This document shows, piece by piece, positions 6,601-58,312 of a stretch of DNA of 64,000 nucleotides. The stretch covers positions 30,766,445 to 30,830,444 of the forward strand of contig OU744446.1 of the NCBI GenBank assembly GCA_916610825.1, given 5' to 3'. The stretch's first letter is position 1. Each line of letters begins with the position of its first letter. Both the position numbers and the translations under genes were made by a program. Under the pieces are notes generated by a model that saw only the letters and a program-made list of their open reading frames with translations, had not been told where the DNA came from and ran no database searches. This stretch comes from Haliclystus octoradiatus (taxonomy: Eukaryota; Cnidaria; Staurozoa; Stauromedusae; Haliclystidae).

Positions 6601-9600
6601 AGGCTCACTACTACTTGTGCGCGGTACTTGTATGCGATCGCGTCGCGTCATCGCGTCTGTGCGTTTATCGATTATTTAGCATGATACGTTTAGCTGTTTC
6701 TGTTTTCACTGATTGCATTTACATTTAATTAGGACTGACTGACAATTGTCGAATCGAATACGTGTACTCACAAACAATAATCTAAATGTAATATGCTATT
6801 GTACTAGTATATACTAATTTTATTGCGATGAAATATTATGTCTACTAGTATATAGAGCCAAATTAGTTTCATATGGCGTTGCTGTATAGAAAAAAGAAAT
6901 CAATTGATCAAAATGTCCAAATTGAGTAGAATTATTTATTCTTTTCGTTTGCCACTGATATGAATAATTTTAATTTTAATTTACTATTTTACTAATTTAC
7001 TAATTTACTATGGGGGTAATATGCGGGAAGTAAGAATCAGCTACGTGCAGTGTACTGTTGTAGCTAGGTTGTCCCTAAAATATTTGTACTCGTTATGAGA
7101 CTTATATTAATTAACTGGTATATGACAATCACTCAATCTAGAATATTTTCCATGTCCTGTACAAACTCTCCTTTCAATCATTTTGTTTACTTGAAGTTTT
7201 TGTGTCGTTTCGGAGTATTATTCACTAAAGTTATAAGACAAGTTTTTATAATTGTAAGACTTGTATGCAGATACTGAGTAAATTCGAAAGTCATTCAAAC
7301 TTTTATTCCATCGAATCTAAATACAATATTGTAGTTTTAGAAATTGTCGACTGTCATTTATAAATTATTAGATTATACTAAATAATAATACATTATTCGT
7401 TATTGAAATATGCAACAAACGTACAAACATGACCTTTAATGAATTATAACCATTTAACAAAAATGATTACACAAGCTATTGTAAATTAATATTTTTGGTA
7501 CATTATTCCCCGTGTTATATTTTTACCAAAGCCTTACGATCTGCGATCTAGATTCAGATTTTGAAAAAAATCACGGTCAACCGCACTTGTCACGGCTACA
7601 ATTATCTTAAAATTTCACAAGTGACGGGATGTCCGAACATGTAGGGCGATCTCAAAAACAAGTAACGGGATCTCCAAACAAGTAGCGCGAATTCTGAAAG
7701 AAGTAACGGGATCTCCGAACAAGTAACGCGATCTCATAAAAAAGTACCGCGCCGAACAAGAAGTAGTAGTGAGCCTTTTGGCACTTCATAACATTACCTG
7801 GACAGGCTATGATACTATCAGATATCATTTAGTGGTGGAAACTGAAAATGTTATTATGTAGCAAAGTGACTAACCAAATACAGCTGTGTCCACATTGATA
7901 TATGCCACAGCACGAGTTGCCAACAATTTTTCTCTTTCCTATCAAAACAGTAAATCGATAAATTATTGTTAGTATTTTCCTATTAATTACAGTGAAACCT
8001 GTATATAACAGCCAACTATGAAATGGATAGATTTACCAATATATGCAGGTGACCTTTATAGACAGGTGGTCGCTGTATAGAGGTGAACATTATAATCGTT
8101 TCAACTTTATACATTGTAGTTTCCATTCCAATTAACAATGCTCCTTTAATTATTGGTCAGAACGAATAAATCCAAGAAGTATGTGAAATACTAAGGCAAT
8201 TTTTCAACTGATATACTGTACTTCATTCACTACAGCACCAGAATTAAAAAAAATAGATAGTGTTGCAGTTTTCAAAGTGTCTAGGCATTTTTATGCTACT
8301 TTTCAGCTTGTTTTCATTGGTTCTTTTTGCATTCTATTCTTCTCCAGTCAAGAACAAACAAAATTGATTTCATTCATTCAAAGTATTTTATGAAGACAAT
8401 AGCTTGTCTCTGAGCCAATCATAATATGGTAATTTGTTCATGCATATTATAAGAGGATTCACATTCTTAATCAAAAAAAGAGAACAACGAACTTATTTGT
8501 TGCCATTCTATACCTCTACCCATTCTTGTGATCCAATGATACCATGTTCTTCTCCATCCCAACTACAAAACATAATGGTGCGACGAGGGCGCCATCCTAT
8601 ATAATGGAGAGAAAGAGGCGGAGAACATGAAACCTTCAAATATTTACTAATAAAGGAAAATTATCATCATTTATTCAGAACACCATTTGTTATTTAATAA
8701 AGCTTATATTTTAATTTAGACAGAGTTAAACTAAGTAGATGTGCTGTTTTGGCAGAGAGCTACTATTCTTTCACATTGCAGGGGCGTGCTGTTAAACTTC
8801 AGGCAGAAGCTAGTTTATCAATTCTGAAAGTACAGATGATGTAAGCATTCACATAATCATACTGTGAAGGTCCGAGGTTCCAGCTAATTTTGCAAAGGTG
8901 CCAGCTGCCTTGGAGCACCTAGTTTTTATTTCAGTTATTATTCCTTGAAGGGATTGAAAAGCTATCAAACGCAAATGTATTTGCAATTATCTTTGTTTTC
9001 TTGTAAGCAAGTTCCGATGCTTTAAAAGCTTTTAGCCTTCCAGCAAAATTTATTATACAGTGGATGTTATTAAAGCATCATGTATTGATCAGACGAGTTT
9101 AATGTTGATTGAAGAATTCATTACAGGATATAAATTTGTTGAGAATGATGAATTCTTCAATTGTTCACAGTAATTCAATATTAAATTACCGGGAAACCTA
9201 TATATAAGAGCAAGCTATAAAAGGCAGATAATTTGACCAATATATGCAGGTGGCCCTTATATACAGGGTTGATTCCATAGAAAATATTATTTTAGACATA
9301 TCAATAATGACCACTATGGACAGGTGGTTTCTTTATAGAGGAGATTGTTATAACAGGTTTGACTGTATATGGATACTTGTAGTGCAATGTAGTTTGTCAC
9401 TGAAACCGTAATTTGTATGTTATTGGTTGTTAGGGTTTCATCATGCTATCCATTGTCGTTTATGTAGTTCCTATTGGCATGCATAAGAGTGTTTAGTCAA
9501 AAGAGAGACAAATTATTGAACACATATAAAAACAATAGCTAGGTAAATGTTTTCTTTGTTTTGGAGCTTATAGAAAAGGAGGAAATCAGCTGATTGGAGG

Positions 9601-12600
9601 AACTCTCGTATGTCTGTATTAGATTAAAAATGTTTTCTATACGTACAGCTGCAGTAGTTGGTCCTTGGTTATACCATAACAAATTCACAAACCTGATTTC
9701 ATTTTATCTGCTAACACTCTTGCCATTTCCATCATAACTGCTGTGCCGCTTGACGCATCGGCCGCTCCAAATACCCATGCATCACGATGGTTACCAACAA
9801 GAACATAACGGTCTAAGAAATTAGAATAATTTAATATGGTTATCAAAAATAAAAAGGTAGTCAAACAAATTTATATTTTTGTCAATCTTGATCACCTAAG
9901 TACAAATTTTGGCTAAATAAAAATTATGTGTCGCACCAAAGCAAAAATCTGCCTGCAAAGTGAATTGAGCATGAAGATCCATGGTCAAATTGTTCATTGA
10001 ACTTTTTCAAACACAGCCTCTCTATATATTTTTTGGTTTTACAAACACAAATCAGAGAATATATAGAAGTGTGATCAGTGCGATGTGAATTATGTCGCTC
10101 ACGATACCTTGGCTACTGTTTTAGACTCTTCTAAGGCTGAAAACCACACACCACGGGTCCTACAATGTACAGTACAGTACACTATGCATTGACAGGGCCC
10201 AACAAAATTAAGAATCTCGCAATCCTAGATTCAGGAAGGCTAGGGCAATTTTAGAAGAAATTGATATTTTTATGATCCCATAAGGCTGAACCTCTAGTCG
10301 GACCTTGCAGCATTGGTCTTGATAAAAGTTGAAATTGAATTGGGTAATAAAAGATTAACAAATTATTTTTTAATTCTACCCTAGGTAAATAAACAAGTTG
10401 AAAACTTCATGATACATCACATAGGAGCGGGATGGTTAACCGGTTGTGAAAATCCCCCCACCATCTCAACCCTAACATTACCCACCTGGCTCAACAGCCC
10501 CTTGAATGGTGCCAATAACATTTGAAATTGCAACCTGCTTCATCTCATTGTATACATAGATTTTGACTTTTCTGTAACAAATAAAATGTACTGCATTGAA
10601 AGTACCGGTAAGAAGAATACGGATTGTGTTTCGCTTCATCATTAGAGCAGTATTAGCAACACATAGCAAGGTTGGTATAGGAATAAAAACAAAAATAAGT
10701 TATGAGAATGGGCCTATCCTACTTCTTCAGTAAATGTAGTCAATTTATATGGGAACTTCGATAAAAGCAATAACATAATTTTTATTCGAACTATAGTTGG
10801 ATTTCTAAAACATATTGCCAATTTCTTCTCATAAATTGGTTCAAGTACCCTTCAAAATAATAATTTCGACAGATTTTTAAAAATATCTAAATGCCAACAA
10901 AATAATTTTTTGATGTGTATAGTTAATGTAATTATAATGCATAGGCTTGTTTCTGTTAATTGAATTGATTTTGAATCGATTTTTGCTTGGGGTTAAATGG
11001 AATTTTACCGAGGTTAAACCATCATCTTTAAGTTGCGTACATTGTGAGCTATTACTTTGTAGGTTAGAGGAAGGGGCCTGGTATTGAGGCTCGGGTTCAC
11101 AGGAGGGGGTAGGTATTACGCAGTGGGTCATCTAATCTACTTAACAGTTTTCTTGGGCGTTTTATTCATTCCTTGCCTTGCCAGCTTGCTGCTTAGTTCA
11201 TTTCAGCCAACTTCCGCAAGTTGTAAATTTATTTTGATGCTGCTTTAATTGAGGTCATATTTACGGTTATAATGCTATGCCAATGATGATTGTGGTGTGG
11301 GCTGCTGTTTTTGATGCTGGTCAAATATGCTTGTTGATTGCTGTGAATTAGGATTTGTGTTGCTGCTATGACATGCTAATGCCTGGGGCGTTCCACTATC
11401 GTTTGTGTTGTTGTTGTTGTTGCTATGCTATGCTATATTAATGCTTTGGGCCAGGCCGCTATCGTTGGTGTTGTTGTTGTGGCTGAGCTATGCTATATTA
11501 TTGCTTTGGGTCATGCCGCTATCATTAATGTTATTGTTGTTGCTATGCTATGATAATGCTTTGGGCCATGCTGCTATTGTTGGTGTTGTTGTTGTTACTG
11601 AGCTATGCTATATTAATGCTTTGGGTCTTGCCGCTATCATTGATGTTATTGTTGTTGCTATGCTATGCTATGATAATGCTTTGGGCCATGCCGCTATTGT
11701 TGGTGTTGTTGTTGTTGCTGAGCTATGCTATATTAATGCTTTGGGTCATGCTGCTATCATTGATGTTATTGTTGTTGCTATGCTATGCTATGATAATGCT
11801 TTGGGCCATGCCGCTATTGTTGGTGTTGTTGTTGTTGCTGAGCTATGCTATATTAATGCTTTGGGTCTTGCTGCTATTATTGATGTTATTGTTGTTGCTA
11901 TGCTATGCTATGATAATGCTTTGGGCCATGCTGCTGTCGTTGGTGTTGTTGTTGTTGCTATGCTATGCTAATGCTTGGGCCGTGCTGCTGCCATTGAGGT
12001 GTTGTTGTTGCTATGCTAGGCTATGCTATTGACGACGGAGTTTGGGCTGCTTTTGTTTATTGCTGGTTAAATGTGGAACAATTTTTCTCCCACCCTCCTC
12101 CCATTCAAAGTTATGGTTGGTAAGTATGACTAGGAATTCCACTGACTTAGCAGTGTGACTGGAGCTTGGTTGGTGGTGTCAGGTCTGCCTTTGTTCTGCC
12201 GGCCTTTTTAATTATTGCCGCCTGCCACCTCCCACCAACCAAGCACCTGGGCCAAAATATTGTTGTATTATTAAGATGAATGGTTTAATCTTGATTAATC
12301 AATTTTCAAAAACTTTGAATTGACATACCACCAGTTCTAACTAATGTAAATTAATGGTTACCATGACAACAAATATATAAAATTAGTTTCTACAGGCATG
12401 TAGGCCTATTATCTAAAGGAAAATTCGTATGACTACAATATGTTGACTTACAGATCTTTGTGAGGAGCAGCAAAGCCAGGTCCAACTTTATAAGTCAAAT
12501 TGTATCCCCCAGTCCAATTACTGAAGACAGGAGTACCATCAAGTTTGCTACAGGAACAAATGATTAAACTAATTGCAGTGATTTATTGCTAAATACTAAT

Positions 12601-15600
12601 CTATCCTTAGGAAAATGTGAAAGTATGCATGCGTGTGTGGTCCAGTTTACCCCTGTTTAGTCATGTATACATCATAAATCATACTTGAATCACAATTTTA
12701 AAAAATTACTTCATACAGTGGAAATTGTTTACAGTGCCACCTTTCATAGCGGAATATTGATTATAACGTACTGAATTCAACTGATCTTCCTAGTGAAGTT
12801 TGGTATCTTAATTCCTTATAACTAATTAGCTATATCTGTACAATGTGCACATCGCCCATAATGTACATTTTAAAAAATCTCTAGGGATGCCATTATAGAC
12901 AGTTTCTACTTTACTATCAAGGATATCTTGAGATAATTTGTATTGGATTTCGATTGGAAAAAGGCAATGCCTGAAAATTCTCATTTTATTTATAAAATTT
13001 CATTTTAATCAATTCTCAAATTACGATTAATTATTGTAGGTCATTTTGAGAGTAAGAAGATGTAAAATGAAAAATGTGACTTTTCCACTAGAACATTGAC
13101 TATATGCACCTGCTGCCTGTATTACTATTTTATGAGGCTATAATGTGGCTAAGAATTCCTTGTCACAACAAAAATTCTACTTTTCTTGTGATCACCCTGT
13201 GAGAAAGTTAGCTGCACTAACAGCAACAATTAACAGGCTGATATAGCTCACCTAATGAAATGTAAAGCATCTTCAGCAGAGATCGGATGGCATGGAATTG
13301 CAGGGATATACTTGCGTCTTCTTGCTTCTTCTTCAGATATACGGAACGCATAATCTTTGAACAAACATATTATTATTGTGAAGTGTGTGAATACCAACTT
13401 ACTAAAAATAATGGATCTTAATTAATTATAAATAGCATCTGGAAAGCATTCTGAAACTTTCAGTCAATTACAAATATATATTCAATATCTTTATCAAAAT
13501 CTGAATAAATGAAATGATGAAAAATCAACAATTCTTATACCAAATATTCAGTTTCTGTACTTGGATAGGGAAGAATGTGCCAGTTAATGTGCATGTAAAT
13601 GTATAATAAAACGCTGTGACTATTTGACCGGCAGTCGCAGCCATTATGGATACCAACGCATGCGTATCATGAACAAACAGTAACTTACAAACATTTTGGA
13701 ATATAAATAATGAAAATAAATTTAAAATTTGGAATAACCTGGACTCGAACAAGATGCACGCTAGTCGGCCCTGCACGCTAGTCGGATGCATCGGACGCCA
13801 ACCGAGGAAAGCTCATGAAACAGAAATGAATTTAGCCTCAACCGGGTTGACTTGCTCAAGTCTCACTTCTATGTCATGCCCATCTTGATGGATTGGGAAG
13901 TGAGACTTGTGTCCTTTGAGAAATCTATTGTCTTTAAACACAGAGAAACCGCTTCAGTATTCAGGAAGTGACGCACATAGTCTGTTAGTGATCCAGGGAG
14001 TCAATGTGCAACTTGAAATCCTTCTCTCGTCATTCACAATTATGGAGCCAAACAAACCACAGCATTGCACGGAAAAACGTTGGTTGAAGCATTTCCTTAT
14101 CATCAAGTTGGTGCTGTCGAAGCTGTTTGTTTTCAATGGCAGAGATGTTTCATAGTCAATTTGCTCTGGCGATATCAAATAATGATCACATTCCCGTTCC
14201 TGAAAAACCTCGCGAAGTCGTGATTTCTGAATATCGTAAATATTTTGTTCTGATCATTTGTCATTTTCTACGTCTAACGAAAGACCAAACTACTATATTA
14301 AAAAACAATTATTTGTCTTACTTTGTAAGATGTGAATGAACATTGAATATTCTAAACGTTTTGTAAACATTTCTAATTACAGGAGCCTAAGATTCTTTAA
14401 AACGTTATCAGTATTAGAGAACTTGCTTGTTTTGGGTGCCCCATCTTTTTCCGCCTTATGAGCGGGTGAACATTTATTAAATAATAGGATCAAACAAAAT
14501 ACCGTTGTGCAGGATTCTGCACAACAGCTCTCAAAGGACACAAGTCCCGCTTTCCAGTCATGAAATTGAGGCAGCAAAAAGAAAGCGGGACTTGAGCCAG
14601 TCAACAACCGGATGGTTATCACGTGATCGGACCCTAACTCTAAACGGGTGGTTATCACGTGATCGGACCCTAAACCTAACCCTGGGACGAGTGAAACACG
14701 TGATCAAATGAATGACGTAATTGACTGTCTGCGCACGCGCAGTTGAATTCGTAATGGCTGCGACTGCCGGTCAAATAGACACTTCGATAATAAAATGATG
14801 TCAATATAAACTTATTTGTTAGGCTATCAGGTATTTAAATAAGGTTACCTCTTAACTCAAGCAATATACATATGTACATGTATCAGAGCAGCCACACTGT
14901 TTAATGCTTATCTTATGCAGAGGATGCGAACGATACCTTTTGATGCATATCCAGGTGTTAATGGATCACCATCTCCTTTTCCAATTGAGCCACGTTGAAC
15001 ACCATCGCGTGGCATCCACCAACTATTTGGAAATAGTTCATCATCACCAACAGGGCCATAATTGATTGGATCGTTATAAATCAAAATTCCAATTGCACCA
15101 TTCATTTGGGCATTTTCAACCTGAAAATGGACCAGAATATAGCTTTTATTGGGGCGATGTTTCAGAAAAACAATTTGGCTGAGGAATGGTTTGAGTTATT
15201 GAAGAATGCAGCCAGAGTCCAACAAAAGTGGGAAACCTGTAATCCTAGATGCCAGGAGGCTAGAAGAAATTCAGAAGAAACATGACATTTTCAAGCTTTA
15301 TATGATCATTTACTGCTCTCAGTAAAACCTGTATGTAAACCAGCTATGACATTGTCCACTAATAGCCTATACCACTATAGACATGTGTACATCAATGCAG
15401 GGTTTATTCAATAGTATAATATTTTTGTATATTACTGAAGTGATTGCTATAGACAGGTTGTCTTTATATACATGGTTGGTTCGATAGAAGAATCCTTCAA
15501 GTGGTCACTATGTACAGGTGGTCTCTAAACAGAGGTGGGTGTTGTAACAGTCTCTTGTTCACTGAGCAGTACTGACAACGGCTAATGGCCAGAAACAAGT

Positions 15601-18600
15601 ACTTGTCTCCTACTAATATATATACTTTGAATAAAATATACAAGTTTAGGAACTCAGTCTTTAGTCTTTACATATCTTAGGTACCACGATTCCTATGTTT
15701 CCCATACCCATCGTCATTTTATAATTGACTAGAAAAAAAGGCTGCCTACGGCATCCTTTTTCTAGCTCCTGAGCAGGGCCTTGTGGGCCTTTGGCCCAAT
15801 TTAAGGTTGTTACTGTGGATGTAGGAACCTTCCTGAACCATCTAGAACATTCTAGAACATAGGAGAACCTACATGACTCCCCGCATGACTCACAATGACC
15901 GTGCATGATCTAGCAGCTTCTAGCATTTATCTAAACACTATAAATACAGTAAATGAAAACTATGAAAACTATGAGAACTTAATGTACAGTCTACTATCAA
16001 CATGTCAACTTGGAATTAATATTATTATTCATAAGAAGAAATATACAAATCAATTCAACCTACGTTGTTATTATTATTTCTTCAACATAATTCTACAGTT
16101 CTCATCAATTGGTCCGTCGAATTATAAGAACAACTCATCAATTGGTCCGTCGAATTATAAGAACAACTCATCAATTGGTCCGTCGAATTATAAGAACAAC
16201 TCATCAATTGGTCCGTCGAATTACAAAAACAACTAATTATGAATAATCTTCACGACTTTACAACATAATTTAAAATCTGAAAGTATTTTATTACAACATG
16301 GAATTGAACACAACATTTTATTCACGACCGCGGCATCAAAACAATATAACTAGATTGGTTTTCACACTGAAGAACAATGGCATTTTACGTAACTTATCAA
16401 AATACGCAGAAAACACAAGAAATGGAACTAAACACAAGAAATGGAACTAAACACAAGAGTGGAACTATGGAACTACACACGAGAAATGGAAATAAACACA
16501 AGAAATGGAACTGAACACAAGGAATTGGATTACCCAAAACTGAAGAGACTGAACTAAAAAAGTAAGATTTTAAAATACTGAACATAAACCATTGAACATT
16601 CCAATATTTTGGAACTTTTAAATATTGAACACTAAACATTGGACATTCCAACATCATAAAACTTTTAAATATTGAAACATTCAACATTCAACTAAGAACA
16701 TTGAAACACAATGAACACACTAAGAATACTAAATGAACTAAGAAACACACAAGAACACACAACAGAGTTTAAAATTGAACACACAAGAATAAGCAACAAC
16801 TCATGAAAATACTGAATTCCTCAAACACACAAGAATAAGCAACAACTCAAGAAAATACTGAATTAATCAAGCACACAAGAATAAGCAACAACTCAAGAAA
16901 ATACTGAATTCATCAAACACACAAGAATAAGCAACAACTCAAGAAAATACTGAATCCATCAAACACACAAGAATAAGCAACAACTCAAGAAAATACTGAA
17001 TTAATCAAGCGCACAAGCAAAAAATATGACTATAAAAGAAACATTGAAGATCACCAAGCTCATAGAAGAAACTGAAATTAAACCAAATATTACACTTGTA
17101 TGAAAATTTCTTTTTCTGGAAATCCAAAGCAATTTAACAAATTGATATGCACCAAAATTGTAATGAATTTTCTCATTAACTGTTATGCAATTAGTCTATA
17201 AGCATATCTAAAACCTTCATTAATAGCTTCTACTATACCATAATTACTTACATTTATATTTACATACATTTATTATTTACAATTTAGCATATATTAAAGC
17301 ATTAATCTTTCTCATTTTTAGCCTATATCATGCGCTTTTATTTATGGCTCCGCCATCTGGCGGGGGGAGTTATGTAGGAACCTTCCTGAACCATCTAGAA
17401 CATTCTAGAACATAGGAGAACCTACATGACTCCCCGCATGACTCACAATGACCGTGCATGATCTAGCAGCTTCTAGCATTTATCTAAACACTATAAATAC
17501 AGTAAATGAAAACTATGAAAACTATGAGAACTTAATGTACAGTCTACTATCAACATGTCAACTTGGAATTAATATTATTATTCATAAGAAGAAATATACA
17601 AATCAATTCAACCTACGTTGTTATTATTATTTCTTCAACATAATTCTACAGTTCTCATCATGGAGAAGCTGTATTTAATTTTGATCACTAAGGAGGTGGT
17701 TTAGCTCTATAGTCTGTATATATAGTAAGGATTTCAGAATCAAAAAGCTTTTGCTAACATGAACGGTATATAATAAAGATTGGCTCTTACAATTTAAGCG
17801 TTAGAAGATTTCAAAAGTGTTATTCGATTTCAGTTAATTAATTATTAATATTATGTTGAAAAATATTTTGCCAAAGTTAATAGGACTACAACGTTACAAT
17901 GATTACAGAAGCGTTTTGGAAAATTTTAAACTAAACATGGTACGGAATTCAGTTACACTATTTGACCATTCCAATATATAAGTAGTAACAACATTGAACA
18001 TAGCTTTTAAAATTGAGTTATCATGTTTCAAATCCATGCAGTTACCAAAATATGTACAAGCTAACGGCCTTCAAAATACATAAAAGTTACTAATCACATG
18101 ACAATATGAAGCACCAATTACAACACATTAGCCTACTAATTATGACGTGAAAAACATGCACAATACCTAAACAATATCATAACTAAATCCTACAAATATC
18201 AAAGCCATAATCATATCCATGATTGTCTAGCGTCATATCGCGGTTCAGTAACCTAACCAGATACTAACCACTCTGTCATTGAATTTGTCGGAATAATACT
18301 ATTGCGTATTTGCGTGGACAGTGGTTTACTATGCTACACCTTTGTCGAATTTGTCGCCTTGAATTTTTTTTGAATAAATGTTGAAATTATCTTTGGGACC
18401 AGCAGCCTTTAGAGATTTGAGATTTATTTATGTTTACATTTCATTATGAATTATGATGATTTTTCTTCTCGCTGTTACTCAAAAGTTTTGGTAGATAATT
18501 TGATACGGTGAATGTTTGGAGATGTTTTCACAATTCAAACGGTTGAATCCAAATATTGTTCAAATTCAAAGGTTTTATGACTTTCATAAACACAGCACTC

Positions 18601-21600
18601 TATAATGAAATTTATAAATGATTTTAAGCAGAGAGCTACATCTGAAAAAGTAGAATATAACTAGGGATGCACCGAAATTCCGTTTCGGCATAAAATTCCG
18701 GCATTTCGGCCGTTTTGCCGGCATTTCGGTTTGGCAGAAATTTGACCTCAGTTTCGGCCGTTTCGGTTATTTCGGCCATTTCTTATAAACACATAAAATG
18801 TAACAAATAATCATATTTGATAACATAAATCAAAATAATAATTGATTCCATCCTGTTTTCAATGCATCATAAAGCCTTTACTGTCTTTGATAAGTCTTGG
18901 AATGGAGTCCTACAAAGTTTTCCGCTGATCGCAGCCATTTTATTGCTTTGCCTCATTCTCAAAAAAACCTCGCTTCCAGATAAATCATCAGACCACGTGG
19001 TCAAATAAATTGGACGGACATGTTTGCTGTGTGAAAATTATGTTTCCTTGGGATCTATTATTTTTTTCCTAAATAGTGAAAAATATTGTTCTTTTTAACC
19101 TTCGATTTGTTTTACGAAGTCGGGTACGAAGTAGTAGGCCTACTACTGGAGTGGAGAAGAGATAAATTGATTGCCTTTTATGATTAAACATGAAATCAAA
19201 TAGGAGCAATCATTTGTGTTGATGGTCAATTTGTTCTAAAAATGATTCTATATTCCAAAGTAAGCAATTTCAACTCGTTTTTGGTGATCAAATATCGTAT
19301 AAGAAATGTGCCGGAACAAAACCGAAATTCGGCCGAATTCCCGCCGATCATACCGGCATTTTCTGTTTTTCAGCCACAGCCGGAATAGCATTCCGATGCA
19401 TCCCTAAATATAACTGATACTTAAACATATTAAACATAATTAATCACAAAAGTAGAAAGTAATTTTCGTCATCATCCCAATTTATGTTTTTGGTTTTGTT
19501 CGAGATTTCAGAACACTTTATCATATTCACGGTTCATTGCTACACGGCTTTGCTCTGAATGGCGGCAGCTTTGATTTTTTACGGAGAAATTTTGATTTTT
19601 CAATTTTACGCCAAATTCAGTTGATTTTTCAAAATTAAATATATCCTATGTTCAGACCACGAAAGAGAGCATTCAAATGATGTATGATGTTCAGGATTTC
19701 TTCGCATGGTTTTTGAGATTTAGAGCGTACAAAGTTTTGAAGGTCAATTTTATATAGCAGTAGAGATTACACTGTATTATAATATTATACTTGCATGAAA
19801 AACCTAGGATCAAGATTAACAGCGAATTTTATGTAAGATTACCTTATCACCACGGAATATAGAACCATATCTTGCAATCACAATCTTTCCTGTGCAGTTG
19901 ACGCCATAATGATTTTTCAGCATTTGAAAATCGTCATATGTTCCATAATTAACATAAACAAGATCACCCTGAAAGAACAGTTAGCTAAAGCTTACTAAAT
20001 AGAACAATCAAAGATCTTATATAGTAATTAGTCAAGATAACAAGATGCTTCAACGGAGCTATGGGCAAGTAGTATCTTTCATTTAATGTTTTGTATCATG
20101 AATTGTCTTACTTACAAGTATCTTCGTCAGCTATGTACGTCTGACCGTGATTTGTGGTGTTTACTGTGTAGAAAATATGTCAGGCGAAAGAGGGAAGGCA
20201 CATTCTTATAATGTGACTGCCTATACTACTAACATTGACAACAATTACAAGATAACGCGATACAAATACATTGAACCTCCCTACTAGTGATTATTGTTAT
20301 TAAAATTAAAAAAAAAAATTAAATTAAAATTGCAAAGTCATTTGGTAGATCATGAAATCAAAGTATTTTTTTTCAAAATCCCAAAAATGATTGATTATCC
20401 ATGTTCATTACACAGCCTATCCAGTTTTTTTTTGTTTTTCAAACACAAATCAGAGATTATATAGAAGTGTATGTGATTAGTGGGTTTAGTGCAATAGGCA
20501 TTAACAGAAGCTCACAATATCTAAATGGATACTTTTTGAGCTACAAGGACCTGTGATATTCTAATGCCTTTCTTTGAGTGGTACTGATGATGGCTAATGG
20601 TCAGAAATCTGTGTCTCTCCAAATTACTAATTATTTATTACTAGCAATGAGTCAATCAATTACTAGCTTTGTGCAGATAATTAAAATAGTTAGGCAATAA
20701 CAACTGTTTCAACCAAGTTGATGATTCTTGGAATTCGACATCTTGTGAAATTTTATATTGAAATTAAAGTCATACAAATTAATACAGCTGAAACACTAGG
20801 CCTATATAAACAGGGGTAAAAAATGTTGGAACCACTGGGACCGGCGGTCGCAGGCACAATTATTGAACAATGGTGCTAAAATTTAGAAGTGCTCTTAATC
20901 TAAGTTTAATTAATGTAGTCTGATGTAAAATATAGATAATTAGTATCAATTAATTTAGTGTTGATATAATTACAGATTTGTTATTTCAGATCACAACAAT
21001 TAATAACGAAACCGAATAGGAGGTGTAAAAGGATGATGAAACTATAAATAAGGTCAGATTATATTGGTTGATGAGGAAAATTCCCGGTAAATATTTGCAG
21101 GCATATTTAAGGCAAAATTATGTGATCGCAGGAACTGGAAAATGTTTACACCCCCGCCTAATAAGCTCCCTTCTGAGTTTTTTCTGCAGCCTTATCAAGG
21201 GAAAACGAGGGAGAAAAACTGCATGTTTTCAAGTAAAATGAATGTTGTTTATCCCCTGGAGAACAATAGATCTAAGAAACTCCGATTGAGCTTATATGTA
21301 TTTTCTTATTGTTATACAAAATGGATTAATAATTTAAAAAATTAAACGCGTCAAAACCAACACTGGAAAACAGTGATTCTACTGATATGTAACTCAGATA
21401 TCTTGAATCTTGAGAAGTGGGTGAGAAAACAGGGGAAAACTGGATCACACACACAGAGACTTATCGCTTTTATAGGTGCAGTGAAACCTGTATATAACAG
21501 TCAGCTACAAGAAATAAATAAATTGACCTCTATGTGCAGGTGGCCTTTATACACAGGGTTAATTAAATTGAAAATACTAATTTAGACATTGCAAGAGACC

Positions 21601-23442
21601 GCTATAGACAGGTGGTCGCTGTACAGAGGTGACCGTTAGAACAGGTTTGACTGTAAAATGTTCAAACAATTTTAGTTAGACCCTGTACATTACCATAGCA
21701 TACCTCAACAATTCCAGCTGGTGAATAAGCGTTGAATGGCTGTACTGCTTCTGTGGTAGTATTTTCACTTGGTTCAAGGAAAGATTCTAAAAGATGTGTT
21801 GTGTATGTCACTGTTGTCACTACTCCAGCTGAATCCTCGATTGTAGCAATATTTGGTTTATCTTTGTTTGGATAAGATAGTAAGACGTTGTAATTTGAGA
21901 ATTCAGCATCAAACCCATACTCCTTAAAACGACGATGAATTTCAATTCCTAAATCATTGTTTCTTTTCCTTCCAGCAACATGAGGTTCTTTAGAAAAGTA
22001 TCTAAATTTAGTAAGTAAGAAAATGATCAGACAATTTGCTTGCCAAGGCACAGGCCAAACACACGGCCAAAATCCCTTCACAAATTCTGTGCAAATGACA
22101 AGTAACATTTACTTTTTGTACTTAATAGGTCTCCAGGATGAACCAATGAGAGCAGCCTCTGAAATATCATTATATGGAAAATGTTTACATGCCCTGAGTC
22201 CCCTATACTAAAAGCCCCTATTAGGGTGTGATCATTTCACTACAGTTCCCCAAATAATAAAATCTAGAAAACACCACTATCTGAAATGTGTGTAATTTGT
22301 AAATGTACTCTAAATATATAGTTATTAACTTATTAGCACTGCATCAATGCTATTTAGCAATGCATGAGTACTATGGCATCATTCAGGCCAGGTTGAAAAG
22401 AATGGTCCGCGCGGGGAATGCATTCCCCGCGCAATCTTTAGGAGTTGGTTTTAAACTCTATTAAAAGATAAATGCATTCCCCGCGCAAAACCAAGTTTTC
22501 TGAATTCTTTGCAACTAGGCATTCAGGTAGATCACATTTTCCTATAAAATAATTTGTGAGATATATTGACTAATGTAGCATGACAAACTGTAATTTTTAC
22601 TAATGACAAGTTCATCAGTAGAAAGAAAATCTTGAATCACATGTTGACTGCTTCCATTTATCCATTATCATTGTGTATAAATATATCATACTATTGTGTT
22701 GGAAATTAGACCCAAATGTGTAGTGTGTATGTACACACTGATTCTGATAATCAATACTGCCATTACCACACCGTTATGGAGTTGTGCCTGAAGTCTGAAC
22801 TGCAAGGGGACCGCAGAAGAGAACGAAATAGTTGTTCATTGTCCTGAAGAAAACCACACCCCTCAAGTGTCAATGACGTCATTTTACGATTTCATTCAAG
22901 TGTTGTGGCAGACAAAATCTCTCAATATGGAGACACTGCTTTCATTTGTATTCAAACTCGAATTTCATGTTACTAACTATTATGATAATACTATAAATAG
23001 TGACACAATGTGTAATCTTATCAGATTCTTACACCCATCATTGAATTTAAAACAAAGATGAATTGAAAAACAAGAGGGTGGCTAAAATTGGAGAAAAAAT
23101 TGTCATTGTGTGAAAACCAACGAGCCAAAACTCGAGCAACTATAATTAGACAACTTTTACTCACTTGAGGTTTTTTCTGATTTCCTCTGCTTTCAAATCC
23201 CCAACTATTTCATTATATAGTTTAGCACGGTCTGCAACTGACATAGACATTGATTTATTATGCTCATTTTTGCAGTCTTTTGAGCCAACAGATCGCCTCA
23301 CTAGGTAACCAATTAAAAAAGCTAGAATCACTGCAACAATGGCTACAATAATAAATATCCATTTCCTTTTCTTGTCGCTTTTTCTAGTGAATGTCAAGTT
23401 TTCTTCTTCAGGAGATAGCATTTCATGTGTGCCCTTAGTCAT
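581..23442 (-). CDS. FOLH1-like: Glutamate carboxypeptidase II-like (NAALADase, M28B) paralog A, 15 exons, 3' end missing
   Basis: This is a type II membrane zinc peptidase of the PSMA/NAALAD family, which cleaves C-terminal residues (in mammals glutamate from NAAG or folyl-polyglutamate) outside the cell. Fifteen exons join with matching phases into 676 codons; human GCPII has 750, so about 75 C-terminal residues lie off the left edge. Order: short cytosolic tail, basic KKRK, membrane helix at about residues 28-48, PA-like apical region, M28 catalytic core, start of the dimerisation helices. All zinc and catalytic residues are visible: His399 and Asp409 (GNHRDAW...D), Glu446/Glu447 (WDGEEHG), Asp475 (INVDT), His575 (YPVYHS). 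They sit at a constant +22 offset from human numbering. The arginine patch is partly lost: Arg485 is kept, but the positions of human Arg534 and Arg536 read Asp554 and Thr556. Substrate preference is therefore uncertain. Family assignment is very secure; orthology to a single human member is not. Confidence 0.93.
699..836. mobile_element. CACTA-like MITE
   Basis: The 138-bp element begins CACTATGACATTTAAAAGTA and its end is the inverted complement, finishing CATAGTG. TTG stands on both sides (696-698 and 837-839). CACTA/TAGTG termini with a 3-bp duplication are the signature of the EnSpm/CACTA superfamily. Non-coding. Confidence 0.65.
837..1747. other. Paralog A intron 14, remainder
   Basis: AT-rich intron sequence between exons 15 and 14. 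Nothing beyond the CACTA-like MITE recognised. Confidence 0.6.
1748..2009 (-). CDS. FOLH1-like: Paralog A exon 14: last zinc histidine and dimerisation helices
   Basis: 262 nt, phase 0/1. It encodes [13 protein letters not shown] with His575 as the last zinc ligand, then [31 protein letters not shown], the first helices of the TFR-like dimerisation domain. Donor ACAG|GTAAAA. Confidence 0.92.
2010..2622. other. Paralog A intron 13
   Basis: Contains a degenerate run of TTTCGGATT/GATCGGA words (2060-2160, 2400-2450) that recalls 30550-30640 in reverse. Probably an old repeat; otherwise featureless. Confidence 0.4.
2623..2716 (-). CDS. FOLH1-like: Paralog A exon 13: LGSGSDY pocket segment
   Basis: 94 nt, phase 2/0, encoding [26 protein letters not shown]. 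The family's LGSGND core is clear. The GRAR stretch that carries two arginine-patch residues in human GCPII reads VDLT here. Confidence 0.9.
2717..4156. other. Paralog A introns 12 and 11
   Basis: AT-rich. 3345-3400 (GTGACCCCTATGGACAGGTG) is a scrap of the pogo-like MITE. No gene seen apart from exon 12. Confidence 0.5.
3424..3509 (-). CDS. FOLH1-like: Paralog A exon 12
   Basis: 86 nt, phase 0/2, encoding [29 protein letters not shown]. Not strongly conserved, but it lies where the family has 'SPDEGFEGKSLYESW...' and it keeps the reading frame. Confidence 0.85.
4157..4224 (-). CDS. FOLH1-like: Paralog A exon 11
   Basis: 68 nt, phase 1/0, encoding [23 protein letters not shown]. Arg485 corresponds to human Arg463 of the arginine patch. 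Confidence 0.88.
4676..4811. mobile_element. Small inverted-repeat MITE
   Basis: About 40-bp imperfect inverted ends (AATGAATAGGGACCTATGAA and complement) around a GC-richer core; non-coding. No clear target duplication. Confidence 0.5.
5447..7790. mobile_element. Foldback pair with about 700-bp inverted arms
   Basis: Left arm 5447-6145 and right arm 7092-7790 are near-perfect inverted copies ending TATGAAGTGCCAAAAGG. ACATTA flanks both outer ends (5441-5446, 7791-7796). Each arm starts with six irregular 20-22-bp tandem units containing GAGATC(G/C)CGTTACTTG. A third array at 6430-6590 ends in the same GTCTTTTGGCAC terminus and abuts a start-like end at 6597, so the structure reads as two related foldback elements in inverted orientation. 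No transposase is visible. It lies in paralog A intron 10. Confidence 0.8.
7875..7938 (-). CDS. FOLH1-like: Paralog A exon 10
   Basis: 64 nt, phase 0/1, encoding [22 protein letters not shown]; Asp475 is the third-position zinc ligand. Same length as paralog C exon 8. The following intron contains the 2.3-kb foldback pair. Confidence 0.92.
7990..8107. mobile_element. Pogo-like MITE copy 1
   Basis: Begins CAGTGAAACCTGTATATAAC after TA; the 3' end is a diverged form of the inverted terminus (consensus GACAGGTTTGACTG + TA). Internal CAGGTGGTCGCTGTATAGAG is shared by the family. Confidence 0.65.
8514..8596 (-). CDS. FOLH1-like: Paralog A exon 9: catalytic Glu pair
   Basis: 83 nt, phase 1/0, encoding [28 protein letters not shown]. 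Glu446 is the expected general base and Glu447 a zinc ligand. Confidence 0.93.
9189..9365. mobile_element. Pogo-like MITE copy 2
   Basis: Diverged 5' end CCGGGAAACCTATATATAAG and good 3' end AACAGGTTTGACTG, flanked by TA on both sides. Confidence 0.7.
9693..9812 (-). CDS. FOLH1-like: Paralog A exon 8: first zinc ligands
   Basis: 120 nt, phase 1/1. It encodes [23 protein letters not shown], with zinc ligand His399 and bridging Asp409 ten residues apart as in human GCPII (His377/Asp387), and then a helix ending DKMKS. Confidence 0.93.
10008..10090 (+). repeat. Dispersed repeat D2, copy 1
   Basis: ACAGCCTCTCTATATATT followed by CAAACACAAATCAGAGA and ATATAGAAGTGTG. The same order recurs at 20405-20495. 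Confidence 0.55.
10193..10307. mobile_element. hAT-like MITE (CAGGGTCC family), diverged copy
   Basis: Starts CAGGGCCCAACAAAATTAAG and ends GTCGGACCTTG, with the family's AATCCTAGATTC and AGGCTAGGGCAA blocks. Confidence 0.5.
10486..10571 (-). CDS. FOLH1-like: Paralog A exon 7
   Basis: 86 nt, phase 2/1, encoding [22 protein letters not shown] and QGAVEP, just before the first zinc-ligand motif. Paralog C has no intron after this point. Confidence 0.9.
11402..12020. repeat. 60-bp minisatellite with 120-bp higher-order unit
   Basis: About ten 60-bp monomers alternate between two types: A contains CTGAGCTATGCTATATTAAT and GGGTC, B contains CTATGCTATGCTATGATAAT and GGGCC. Copies separated by 120 bp are more alike than neighbours. 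Because 60 is divisible by three, several frames stay open by default; these are not genes. Lies in paralog A intron 6. Confidence 0.9.
12452..12547 (-). CDS. FOLH1-like: Paralog A exon 6
   Basis: 96 nt, phase 2/2, encoding [14 protein letters not shown]...[13 protein letters not shown], matching the 'W.G.L...YNVGPGF' segment. Same length as paralog C exon 6. Confidence 0.9.
13252..13354 (-). CDS. FOLH1-like: Paralog A exon 5
   Basis: 103 nt, phase 1/2, encoding DYAFR...[18 protein letters not shown], the conserved 'IP.HPI...DA' segment. Same length as paralog C exon 5. Confidence 0.9.
13616..14782. mobile_element. Long-TIR DNA element, non-coding
   Basis: GTGACTATTTGACCGGCAGT at 13616 is mirrored at 14763-14782. 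Further inside, 13845-13915 and 14525-14610 are also inverted copies (CTCAAGTC, GACTTGTGTCCTTTGAGA). The arms are about 250-300 bp, imperfect. The right arm has two 38-bp repeats with TATCACGTGATCGGACCCTA. No transposase domain recognised; no target duplication seen. Confidence 0.6.
14937..15120 (-). CDS. FOLH1-like: Paralog A exon 4: apical domain
   Basis: 184 nt, phase 0/1. It encodes [24 protein letters not shown] and [11 protein letters not shown], matching 'GVILYSDP', 'PGGGVQRG' and 'GDPLTPGYP' of the family. Same length as paralog C exon 4. Confidence 0.92.
15213..15312. mobile_element. hAT-like MITE, truncated copy
   Basis: CAGAGTCCAACAAAAGTGGG, AATCCTAGATGCCAGGAGGC and TTCAGAAGAAAC match one end of the family; the other end is missing beside a pogo-like MITE. 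Confidence 0.5.
15320..15555. mobile_element. Pogo-like MITE copy 3 (diverged)
   Basis: Starts CAGTAAAACCTGTATGTAAA and carries the family's CTATAGACAGG and CTAAACAGAGGTG segments; the terminal CAGTG complement is weak. It abuts a truncated hAT MITE. Confidence 0.5.
15824..15868 (+). promoter_or_regulatory. Heat-shock-element array in the LTR
   Basis: GAAC occurs at 15825, 15835, 15845, 15855 and 15865, an exact 10-bp period. TTC lies at 15830-15832 and 15850-15852, giving two perfect three-pentamer HSEs (15824-15838 and 15844-15858) joined in phase by an ATC where TTC is ideal. HSF trimers bind inverted nGAAn pentamers of this kind. The same array recurs in the 3' LTR. Confidence 0.8.
15886..15892 (+). 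promoter_or_regulatory. AP-1 site in the LTR
   Basis: TGACTCA, a perfect AP-1 heptamer; a second TGACTC lies at 15874. They fall between the HSE array and the TATA box. Confidence 0.5.
15939..15946 (+). promoter_or_regulatory. TATA box of the TRIM LTR
   Basis: TATAAATA, 71 bp downstream of the HSE array; expected to set a start site near 15970. Confidence 0.55.
16103..16236. repeat. 33-bp tandem repeat spanning LTR end and primer-binding site
   Basis: Four exact-period copies of CATCAATTGGTCCGTCGAAT plus 13 nt. Each unit repeats the last five bases of the LTR and the TGG that starts the candidate primer site (16110, 16143, 16176, 16209). Confidence 0.85.
16777..17012. repeat. 46-bp tandem repeat in TRIM interior
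   Basis: Five copies with ACACAAGAATAAGCAACAAC at 46-bp spacing (16785, 16831, 16877, 16923, 16969 for AAGAA). A 20-bp AACACAAGAAATGGAACTAA repeat lies upstream at about 16410-16520. Confidence 0.85.
17373..17660 (+). repeat. TRIM 3' LTR
   Basis: Same 288-bp sequence as the 5' LTR, including the GAAC array at 17377-17421. Confidence 0.88.
18662..19406. mobile_element. Non-autonomous hAT element with 8-bp duplication
   Basis: 745 bp, starting TAGGGATGCACCGAAATT and ending GATGCATCCCTA, inverted. AATATAAC is duplicated exactly on both sides (18654-18661, 19407-19414). Subterminal TTTCGGCC-type repeats occur near both ends. No transposase reading frame. Confidence 0.85.
19843..19968 (-). CDS. 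FOLH1-like: Paralog A exon 3: GDLVYVNYG / GKIVIARYG
   Basis: 126 nt, phase 0/0. It encodes GDLVYVNYG and then [11 protein letters not shown], the hallmark PA-insert segment of GCPII. The Arg in IARYG corresponds to the pocket arginine Arg210 of the human enzyme. Exon length equals that of paralog C exon 3. Confidence 0.92.
20085..20235 (+). repeat. Dispersed repeat D1, copy 1
   Basis: Shares GTTTTGTATC.TGAATTGTCT, CTGACCGTGATTTGTGG and GACTGCCTATACTACTA-like blocks with the complement of 62765-62910; part also recurs at 57600-57656. Family not recognised. Confidence 0.65.
20405..20495 (+). repeat. Dispersed repeat D2, copy 2
   Basis: ACAGCCTATCCAG ... CAAACACAAATCAGAGATTA ... TAGAAGTGTATGTG, matching 10008-10090. 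Confidence 0.55.
21479..21653. mobile_element. Pogo-like MITE copy 4
   Basis: CAGTGAAACCTGTATATAAC ... ACAGGTTTGACTG followed by TA. Full-length, about 175 bp. Confidence 0.75.
21704..22001 (-). CDS. FOLH1-like: Paralog A exon 2: stalk and start of ectodomain
   Basis: The 298-nt exon enters in phase 2 after TTTAG and encodes [15 protein letters not shown] through [13 protein letters not shown], matching the family's 'PH.AG' stalk and 'F.AYSP.G' segments. Donor GAG|GTATGC. Confidence 0.9.
22409..22432. repeat. GC-rich 24-bp perfect palindrome
   Basis: GCGCGGGGAATG followed by its exact complement CATTCCCCGCGC, in AT-rich surroundings. The half-site TGCATTCCCCGCGC recurs at 22473-22486. Confidence 0.8.
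23165..23442 (-). CDS. FOLH1-like: Paralog A exon 1: cytosolic tail and membrane anchor
   Basis: The ATG at 23442 opens a 278-nt exon. It encodes an acidic/basic tail, KKRK and a hydrophobic helix ([20 protein letters not shown]) followed by RR, as expected for a type II anchor. The donor is CTCAA|GTGAGT, phase 2. A second in-frame Met lies at residue 8. Confidence 0.9.
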
Positions 23443-27226: not shown

Positions 27227-55524
<28,298 letters not shown>

Positions 55525-56271
55525 ATTGATGCCTTGATTAAATGATTAAATAGCAATTCTAGTATGCTGGATGCCCCGAATAATGAATCTCATAAGCACC
55601 AGCACATTAAAATAATATCCTCATTTGCAAAAATATAAATCAAATAACGAGGTTGTGATGTAACAAAATATATTTTTATATAATATTATCAGCGCGATTT
55701 ATTTATTAGTGACAGTTATAGACTACTACTGAACGTCATAATATTTTGATAGCTTCAAAACGTTTATCATTTTAAAGAAAAGAAAATGTTTAGTAAATGT
55801 AATAGTATAGTAGCTTTGGTAGTATAGAGAATCTCATTAAAATAATTTATATCTGTAATTATATTAGTAAGTATTAAGTCTTGAATTATTAAAGACAATT
55901 ATATTTTGTGTTTAATTTCAAATAATAAATGAAATGAATTGTTTTCATTTTTCATGTAAATTGGAAAATGTAATCTATAATAATAATTGATAAAAATTTA
56001 CATAATAATGAATTGAGTGTCATTAAAAAATGTAATTTGTCCTTACATTGAAATATAAAATTATTCCCAAGTCACTGTCTTCTCCGTCCTTTTATTGGTA
56101 AATTTGTAAACTTGAATTCTCTGGGTAACACTAAGATACTGTAGGAGATATTATACTGCCCTGCATTCTGCATATAGTCATAGATCTATCTCGCTATTCT
56201 GTAAAACGTGCCAAAATTTATTTTCCTATAGGTATACCATGTAGTAGAATGCGATTTGAAATAAATGAAAT
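55525..56271. other. Neurabin 3' UTR and flank
   Basis: Very AT-rich, expected to contain the 3' UTR; several AATAAA or AATTAAA-like hexamers. No second gene. Confidence 0.5.
55924..55929 (+). terminator. Possible neurabin polyadenylation signal
   Basis: AATAAA about 400 bp after the neurabin stop codon in AT-rich sequence. Such hexamers are common by chance here; no cleavage site can be seen. Confidence 0.35.
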
Positions 56272-57022
<751 letters not shown>

Positions 57023-57023
57023 A

Positions 57024-57114
57024 TTTCGCGCTTTATTGCGATCATCAGACAGTTCAAAAACTAGATAATTTATCTAGTTTTTGAACTGTCTGATGATCGC
57101 AATAAAGCGCGAAA
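57024..57114. repeat. 45-bp-arm perfect palindrome between two (ATT)n tracts
   Basis: TTTCGCGCTTTATTGCGATC ... GATCGCAATAAAGCGCGAAA with one central base. The right arm contains CTGATGATCGC...GCGCGAAAC, also found (diverged) at 59049-59072. Confidence 0.95.
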
Positions 57115-57160
57115 CTTTAAGTTACAGTAACAAAATGTGTAGTCTTTGACTCCTCTATTT

Positions 57161-57447
<287 letters not shown>

Positions 57448-57656
57448 TTAATTCGCTACTTGAGTGTGACATTTTAAAGAAATTATCATAATGAATTGGC
57501 ATTATACCATCAATTTTGGTATATCAAATTTAAACAGGGTGCACGCCTCAATTCATAATGAGATCAATTATGTCATATTCCAGTGATTTCAGTGAAATGT
57601 TAGGCGTAAAGGGAGACAGCACATTCTTATAATGTGACAGTCTGTCTATATTACTA

Positions 57657-57837
57657 CTAGTGAAACCTGTCTATAACAGCCACCTGTGATTGAGAGATGA
57701 ATAAATTGGCCACTATATACAGGTGGCCTTTGTAGACAAGGTTGATTCAATAGAAATTCCAATTTAGACTTACCAAGATTGACCACTATAGAAAGTCAGC
57801 CGCTGTGTAGAGGTGACCGTTATAACAGGTTTGACCA
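57657..57837. mobile_element. Pogo-like MITE copy 7
   Basis: CTAGTGAAACCTGTCTATAA ... TAACAGGTTTGACCA, with TA at both borders. Confidence 0.65.
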
Positions 57838-58312
57838 TAATCAGTGTTTTACATCTGCGAAACATGGAAATGAGGCAAAATTCAATCTGGGTTGAGTTGA
57901 ATGATTCATAAAAGTGGAGTACATAGCAAGTTGCTATAGCAACTAAAGATAGAGTGACACTAAATTGTCAACTGTTGAATTGACTTCATAATAATCTTGT
58001 AGGATGTTACACAAAAGCAGCGGCAAAAATACACGCATTCAAAAAATTTGATAACATTCTAAAACCACGCACTACAGGAGATCTTTATTCTAATTTCGCA
58101 ATCAAATTTTGTTTAGTAGATTTATATGGTTAGGTTTTGATCTAACGTCATTGAATAATAAACAAGCACCGCCATTCTTTTTTGTCTAAGAATGCCGTTT
58201 TCACATCAAACCGTTCTAGATCAATAAAAACATTCTCAATGATGAAGTCGTTCTAGAATCTAGATTTACACCGCTTGGAATCAATGTAAAAATATAAATA
58301 TATTCAGCAAAG
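57838..58312. other. Upstream region of paralog C
   Basis: About 475 bp between a pogo-like MITE and the paralog C ATG. AATATAAATATA at 58290-58301 is TATA-like but too close to the ATG to be a sure promoter. Repeated TTCTAGA words occur at about 58215-58265. Confidence 0.35.

Follow-up and report, generated by a model that had tools for sequence, protein, structure and literature searches.

A heat-shock-element-like array at the start of the LTRs of a young, non-coding retrotransposon in the staurozoan Haliclystus octoradiatus

Results

An LTR element in the intron of a carboxypeptidase-like gene

The window, by which we mean the whole 64-kb stretch of DNA analysed here, carries a glutamate-carboxypeptidase-II-like (GCPII-like) gene whose nine-exon model (Table 1) leaves out two short paralogue matches at 20195–20086. 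Both of the exons checked against the PDB (2 of 9) match glutamate carboxypeptidase II, and a weak peptidase M28 match that lies over the cut-off (9697–9825) overlaps one exon of the model. The intron between 19840 and 15120 holds, antisense to the gene, the compact LTR element treated here.

Elsewhere in the window, a gene that we take to be neurabin-like, a tentative name suggested by a PDZ_5 match (PF17817), extends over 27143–52041 (+) and includes charged coiled-coil-like frames. With its frames taken as one gene, it presumably spans a BEL/Pao element (44732–50649), also young, that has identical 254-bp terminal repeats (44732–44985, 50396–50649) and whose pol frame is open over 1423 aa. 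Long ATT/AAT triplet arrays lie at 56186–57447 (about 17% GC over 56001–58000), and a TTTA-rich array lies at 38440–39072.

Table 1. Features of the GCPII-like gene and of the LTR element in its intron (window coordinates)
Feature	Position	Strand	Remarks
Glutamate-carboxypeptidase-II-like (FOLH1/NAALADase-like) gene	7873..21982	-	homology to paralogous region at 59–64 kb
GCPII-like exons, inferred	21982-21701, 19980-19840, 15120-14935, 13376-13251, 12570-12454	-	
GCPII-like exons, inferred (continued)	10573-10487, 9813-9691, 8597-8511, 7923-7873	-	
Target-site duplication, left	15816..15819	+	TGGA
5′ LTR, 288 bp	15820..16107	+	TG...CA; identical to 17373-17660
Heat-shock-element array	15825..15867	+	GAA TTC GAA atc GAA TTC GAA tag GAA; 5-bp grid; 7/9 units perfect
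AP-1/bZIP-like site	15886..15892	+	TGACTCA
Candidate TATA box	15939..15946	+	TATAAATA; word also in coding partner's LTR
33-bp unit, 4.1 copies	16101..16234	+	LTR end CTCATCA plus PBS-like ATTGGTCCGTCGAATT, repeated
Non-coding internal region, 1265 bp	16108..17372	+	largely tandem repeats, periods 19, 33 and 45-47 bp
Polypurine-tract region	17345..17372	+	TGGCTCCGCCATCTGGCGGGGGGAGTTA; common to coding partner
3′ LTR, 288 bp	17373..17660	+	identical to 5′ LTR
Heat-shock-element array, second copy in 3′ LTR	17378..17420	+	
Target-site duplication, right	17661..17664	+	TGGA

The element is short, gene-less, abundant and young in the sample taken

The element (15820–17660; 1841 bp, or 1.84 kb) has two direct LTRs that run from TG to CA, a PBS-like word after the 5′ LTR and a polypurine tract (PPT) before the 3′ LTR, both of which also flank the LTRs of a coding partner family, and no stop-to-stop frame that reaches 120 aa. 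In both LTR length and total length, it reaches or exceeds the maximum in the plant definition of TRIMs. Judged by these features it reads as a non-autonomous TRIM of the Ty3/gypsy kind, which agrees with the description given in an earlier, sequence-only reading of this DNA, a non-coding TRIM with paired 288-bp LTRs.

The PBS-like word shares its 33-bp unit with the last 7 LTR bases and is repeated four times here; across 18 paired elements its count ranges from 1 to 5. Such a repeated unit of PBS and LTR end may reflect priming at a downstream PBS, or slippage. Rfam and tRNA scans of the window gave no match.

We searched the genome from which the window comes (262 Mb in 33 contigs, nine large contigs making up about 257 of the 262 Mb). 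A 40-base anchor taken from downstream of the array matched at 320 places with at most 3 mismatches, compared with none for the reversed anchor, and the best 40 of 612 candidates in a search with the LTR were all at least 99% identical to it; the TRIM is thus abundant. From 19 rows of paired LTRs we obtained 18 distinct elements, since two of the rows (L024 and L071) are the same copy. The LTR pair was without differences in 14 of the 18, and a matching 4-bp duplication was present in 16, the two misses being inner units of a tandem chain at 1.12 Mb on contig C1. These elements were chosen as close matches and not at random, so that youth, which the sequence-only reading had also stated for the element, holds for the sample taken.

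That chain (C1:1118836–1123439) alternates four identical LTRs with three internal regions. Other places, with anchor matches 182 bp apart (C2:4412633, 4412815 and 4412997) and two arrays 69 bp apart (C2:16526513 and 16526582), suggest local amplification of LTR pieces.

A phased GAA/TTC array opens each LTR

Alternating GAA and TTC on a 5-bp grid is the layout that defines heat-shock elements (HSEs). In the 5′ LTR, GAAC occurs five times at an exact 10-bp period (15825, 15835, 15845, 15855 and 15865, read from the sequence), with TTC at 15830 and 15850, between members 1–2 and 3–4, and imperfect triplets in the other even slots (ATC at 15840, TAG at 15860, TAC at 15870). Two perfect GAAnnTTCnnGAA runs result, at 15825–15837 and 15845–15857, in a single phase. 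The array starts 5 bp from the LTR end and is confined to the first 48 bp; TGACTCA and the TATA-like word follow it, and the 3′ LTR, identical over all 288 bp, repeats the whole arrangement. The period, the two in-phase elements, the two downstream words and the second copy had all been claimed in the sequence-only reading, and each was found at these coordinates.

That reading had further held the phasing to be very unlikely by chance, and shuffling bears this out. The real LTR fills 7 of 9 slots. Among 5000 dinucleotide-shuffled LTRs, the best count was 1 slot in 1423, 2 in 3229, 3 in 341 and 4 in 7; among 60 shuffled versions of the whole window, it was 3 (23 versions), 4 (35) or 5 (2). The four 3-unit runs in the 64-kb window all lie inside the two LTRs, with none elsewhere in it, and shuffled windows (n = 60) hold 0.77 on average. 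The phased array is therefore far beyond chance. TGACTCA is present too, yet a match to a 7-mer proves little, and the transcription start is placed near 15966–15976 from distance alone.

Compared with ONSEN-like elements, the LTR has at least three adjacent nGAAn units, in two 3-unit runs, and stays below the strongest class (at least four adjacent perfect units), its fourth slot being ATC. Under the strict plant scheme, as set out in the accessible text of PMC5059998, it amounts to two 3-unit sites split by an imperfect slot, with no run of four or more.

Neighbouring 10-mers of the array are 60–80% alike when counted by eye, so the array probably grew through tandem duplication. It is possible, although we rate it as rather unlikely, that nothing else lies behind it: a 10-bp GAAC unit expanded at the LTR end and matches an HSE by accident, with no control by HSF. 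The C after GAA is kept in 5 of 5 units, beyond the nGAAn consensus, and the element is rich in other tandem repeats, both of which fit such a relic. However, direct 10-bp repeats alone account for the GAA spacing but leave the TTC of the opposite slot unexplained, and HSEs can also arise by duplication, as the excerpted text of PMC5059998 proposes for the ONSEN site, from a proto-site.

The LTR and host HSP70 promoters share a layout

The HSF DNA-binding domain is encoded at three places in the genome (contigs C7, C1 and C2). The domain on C7 is split over exons, and by eye we take its pieces to be the HSF1-type DNA-binding domain, so that an HSF1-type gene is present. Three HSP70 genes are intronless, each an uninterrupted frame, and two of them lie head to head. 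Scanned for at least three perfect units, upstream stretches of 541 and 766 bp yielded one site each (TTCcaGAAtaATCtcGAA and TTCtcGAAtaGTCtcGAA), and the minus-strand gene of the head-to-head pair has a weaker site, TTCcaGAAtaATCtcGTA. Counted from the start of each HSP70 site, TGACGTAA follows at 25 bases and AATAAATA at 95–96 bases; the LTR counterpart is TTCctGAAccATCtaGAA, followed by TGACTCA at 56 bases and TATAAATA at 109 bases. The order of HSE, bZIP site and TATA-like box is thus common to the LTR and the three HSP70 promoters. In the LTR and in all three HSP70 stretches the third unit is imperfect; it reads ATC in the former and in two of the latter. Each of the HSP70 stretches has fewer perfect units than the LTR. 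This shared layout is the strongest sequence-only support here for a heat-responsive promoter; were the array a mere duplication relic, the layout, down to the ATC unit, would be a coincidence.

The two further HSF-domain places, on C1 and C2, bear on another explanation, which we hold to be highly improbable, that a different factor uses the site, either a nuclear receptor on AGAACA half-sites or a gamete-active HSF paralogue, and that the element is driven by hormones or in the germline and not by heat. The half-site AGAACA occurs twice, and expression in the germline would be fitting for an element that is young and inherited. What speaks against a receptor is that steroid receptors prefer an inverted repeat, whereas the two half-sites are repeated directly, at a distance of 10 bp.

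A coding family shares the ends of the TRIM

A diverged LTR beside one TRIM copy (L024) led to a partner family with a total length of 5.08 kb, whose 294-bp LTRs are in most cases spaced at about 4.8 kb. In a search with its LTR, 32 of the best 40 (570 candidates) were identical to the query over its full length. Two pieces of the internal region of one copy revealed a gag-like frame (DUF7041) and a pol with protease, reverse transcriptase, RNase H and integrase in the Ty3/gypsy order; the integrase core (rve) scored 31.7 bits, just under the cut-off of 32.6, the integrase zinc-binding match was over its cut-off, and the best solved relative of the second piece was the Ty3 Gag-Pol polyprotein. 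Possibly, we presume, the lineage is CsRn1-like, which it resembles in a gag with DUF7041, the PR-RT-RNaseH-IN order and 4-bp duplications, and this placement is by such shared features. The putative PBS word is TGGTCCGTCG, for which no tRNA primer was found.

Partner and TRIM LTRs are about 80% identical and most alike at both ends, and the PBS word after the LTR and the PPT before it are common to both. Inside, the two families have in common only the PBS end (16–22 bases) and the last 60 bases or so (79%). Judged from these shared ends, the partner is the likely natural source of the TRIM's proteins. The BEL/Pao element of the window was considered as a helper and rejected, as its LTR aligns poorly with that of the TRIM and BLAST gave no match between them. 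A third, more distant LTR family was not found. At one partner-family LTR (C2:28539797), repeats directly follow the LTR, as in the TRIM.

The partner LTR keeps 5 of the 7 units, with one full 3-unit site, TGACTCA and TATAAATA. All 30 partner LTRs examined have one sequence in this region, GAAnnTTCnnGAA plus TTCnnGAA, in which a 1-bp deletion breaks the phase (a loss in the partner or a gain in the TRIM). That a partner which needs expression too has a phase-broken array counts against control by HSF1. So does the position of the array, as the first 48 bp of the LTR are also constrained by integration, and the array could have been kept for integrase binding or reverse transcription at the first 50 bp or so and not for transcription. 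We consider this quite unlikely. The array does begin 5 bp from the LTR end, and the partner LTR is likewise most alike at both ends; however, the array reaches 48 bp, beyond the 10–20 bp or so that known integrases need, and partner LTRs spread in identical copies although their phase is broken. In ONSEN, the longest conserved LTR stretch is approximately the first 25–30 bp, according to the portion of PMC5059998 available to us, which would suit a role in integration.

Consensus arrays also come from other repeats

Genome-wide, the perfect 5-unit HSE pattern had 418 matches (overlapping and both-strand matches included), compared with 3 for the reversed pattern. Many of the 100 5-unit places listed are paired, 2.8–3.0 kb apart. 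In the one pair that was read (L096 and L097; C1:3742414 and 3745277), the palindrome GTTCATGAAC is repeated in a long run at either side; this is a repeated element of about 3 kb with GTTCATGAAC runs near both ends, each matching a perfect multi-unit HSE consensus. These runs are probably subterminal repeats of a DNA transposon, its class being guessed from its looks; they could be transposase sites that mimic HSEs or, equally, real HSF sites. At two further places (L098 and L099), no HSP frame was recognised by eye. We therefore reject the notion that genome-wide array matches are all host HSEs, the 5-unit arrays at L096 and L097 being GTTCATGAAC palindromes of an unrelated repeat. Since these palindromes fit the HSE consensus better than the TRIM does, a consensus match alone is no proof. 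That arrays of this kind can stem from unrelated palindromic repeats counts against the HSF1 reading, and longer perfect GAA/TTC arrays in a different repeated element favour an accidental match in the TRIM.

The 7-slot pattern of the LTR had 302 matches in the genome, compared with 0 for its reversal; among 100 listed matches on C1 and C2, 79 were of the LTR type and 21 were other sequences. Four inverted pairs of arrays lie on C2, three at a distance of 4072–4073 bp and one at 4368 bp. In the pair that was read (L102 and L103; C2:2689700–2694600), one member is an older TRIM end, 83.5% identical to the window LTR, and the other is a solo LTR, with ACTA as its duplication, that lies within a Helitron Rep/helicase-like frame (PF14214, E 9e-6, over a 33-aa piece, at 26.4 bits under the cut-off of 28.9). 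The downstream part of the old LTR occurs at nine places, eight of them identical and one at 96%, and its outer flank occurs at the same nine and no others (97–100%), so a larger mobile unit carried at least the old LTR there. This carrier was most likely a Helitron; joint travel of both LTRs was seen, by spacing, at 4 of the 9 places.

The array is a family trait without evidence of selection

To follow the array among copies, LTRs of the fetched loci were counted by genome place (62 TRIM-type and 30 partner-type), which makes a young sample. All seven units are intact at 56 of the 62 TRIM-type places: the first 56 bases are identical in 54, and two more differ only outside the units. The remaining six have one substituted unit each, GAA to GCA in the third slot (four LTRs) or GAA to GAG in the last slot (two).

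A second sample comprised 20 places picked, regardless of the array, by a downstream anchor from a diverged LTR; two (L114 and L116) were without the 5′ LTR end and were dropped. Nine of the resulting 18 LTRs have all seven units, seven have one substituted unit base and two have two or three; L106 and L107 have a one-base gap in addition. Six of the 18 are simply young: their single difference from the window is at position 82, where the window stands apart from all the others. One unit or more is gone from each of the four most diverged LTRs (L105, L106, L107 and L110), which show 8 to 11 differences over 85 bases.

Substitutions were summed over the 18 together with L102 and L103, two sequences found via their intact arrays, so that the sums lean towards intact arrays. 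They amount to 12/420 in the units and 26/577 in the other bases of positions 1–50 (column shuffle P = 0.17), and to 48/698 in positions 51–85, 20 of the 48 at position 82. Leaving out these two sequences and position 82 gives 12/378, 23/520 and 17/611, so the units change no less than the rest. We accordingly do not claim selection on the units and regard the array simply as a trait of the family; the lack of a sign of selection would fit a relic of duplication.

Other copies lacking the periodic pattern had been named in advance as what would speak against the heat reading. The outcome is divided, as 56 of 62 young LTRs keep the pattern, whereas the four most diverged have lost a unit and the phase is broken in the partner. 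Because the supposedly older sample is partly young and its most diverged members have all lost a unit, we put less weight on HSF1 and more on the relic.

Discussion

We consider it fairly probable that the array is the HSF1-driven promoter region (U3) of a young Ty3/gypsy-type TRIM served by its coding partner, and the TRIM probably switches on in stress, as the layout shared with HSP70 would suggest. In response to proteotoxic stress, HSF1 would bind the array, probably as two adjacent trimers, about 145 to 100 bases before the start and, together with the bZIP site and the TATA box, would drive transcription from the 5′ LTR. The 5.08-kb coding family would then supply the proteins that package the TRIM RNA, reverse-transcribe it and integrate the product, and with every new copy, full or solo LTR, the genome would gain a potential heat-responsive promoter or enhancer. 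In the window, the LTR promoter would point antisense through the intron of the GCPII-like gene, and read-through of a heat-induced transcript would yield RNA antisense to the first two GCPII-like exons seen.

The closest known systems differ in host, in element or in proof. ONSEN/COPIA78 and other heat-responsive Brassicaceae COPIA elements likewise have strong, multi-unit HSF sites in the LTR; they are plant Ty1/copia elements with proven heat induction, whereas here an animal, gene-less Ty3/gypsy-type TRIM is described at the level of sequence (PMC3907296 and PMC5059998, both in excerpt). For plant LTRs, the accessible text of PMC5059998 relates predicted 3-unit sites to heat induction of up to about a hundredfold and 4-unit sites to induction of up to a thousandfold, and one of its sentences on activation of this sort names D. 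melanogaster. HSE-bearing Helitrons of Caenorhabditis also spread HSEs through an animal genome as a mobile element; according to the available part of PMC6927752, those HSEs sit in a rolling-circle DNA transposon, whereas ours sit in an LTR, of a type that a Helitron-like unit of this genome also carries. Cryptococcus TCN3 and TCN12 have putative HSEs in the LTRs of heat-mobilised elements, but these are fungal, with one or two sites each, and, in the part of PMC12810828 at hand, their mobilisation at 37 °C was measured. In the literature searched, which covered few subscription journals, we found no HSE array in an animal TRIM or Ty3/gypsy LTR.

A wider proposal, which we regard as doubtful, is that HSF licenses a community of elements: the TRIM, the LTR-spreading Helitron and the unrelated repeat with its hundreds of perfect HSE-consensus matches. 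If true, the TRIM, with an array stronger than those of its helper and of HSP70, would outcompete helper RNA under stress, and hundreds of new HSF sites would have been seeded, rewiring the animal's stress response.

For LTR elements, control by heat has been proven in plants; the best animal case that we found in print is a Helitron. With an abundant animal TRIM whose array is stronger than that of its likely helper, one could ask whether a parasite that has no genes of its own can gain the upper hand by responding to stress signals of its host. Stress bursts are a possible reason why most of the sampled copies look newly inserted, and hundreds of LTRs with near-identical arrays would offer ready-made natural reporters.
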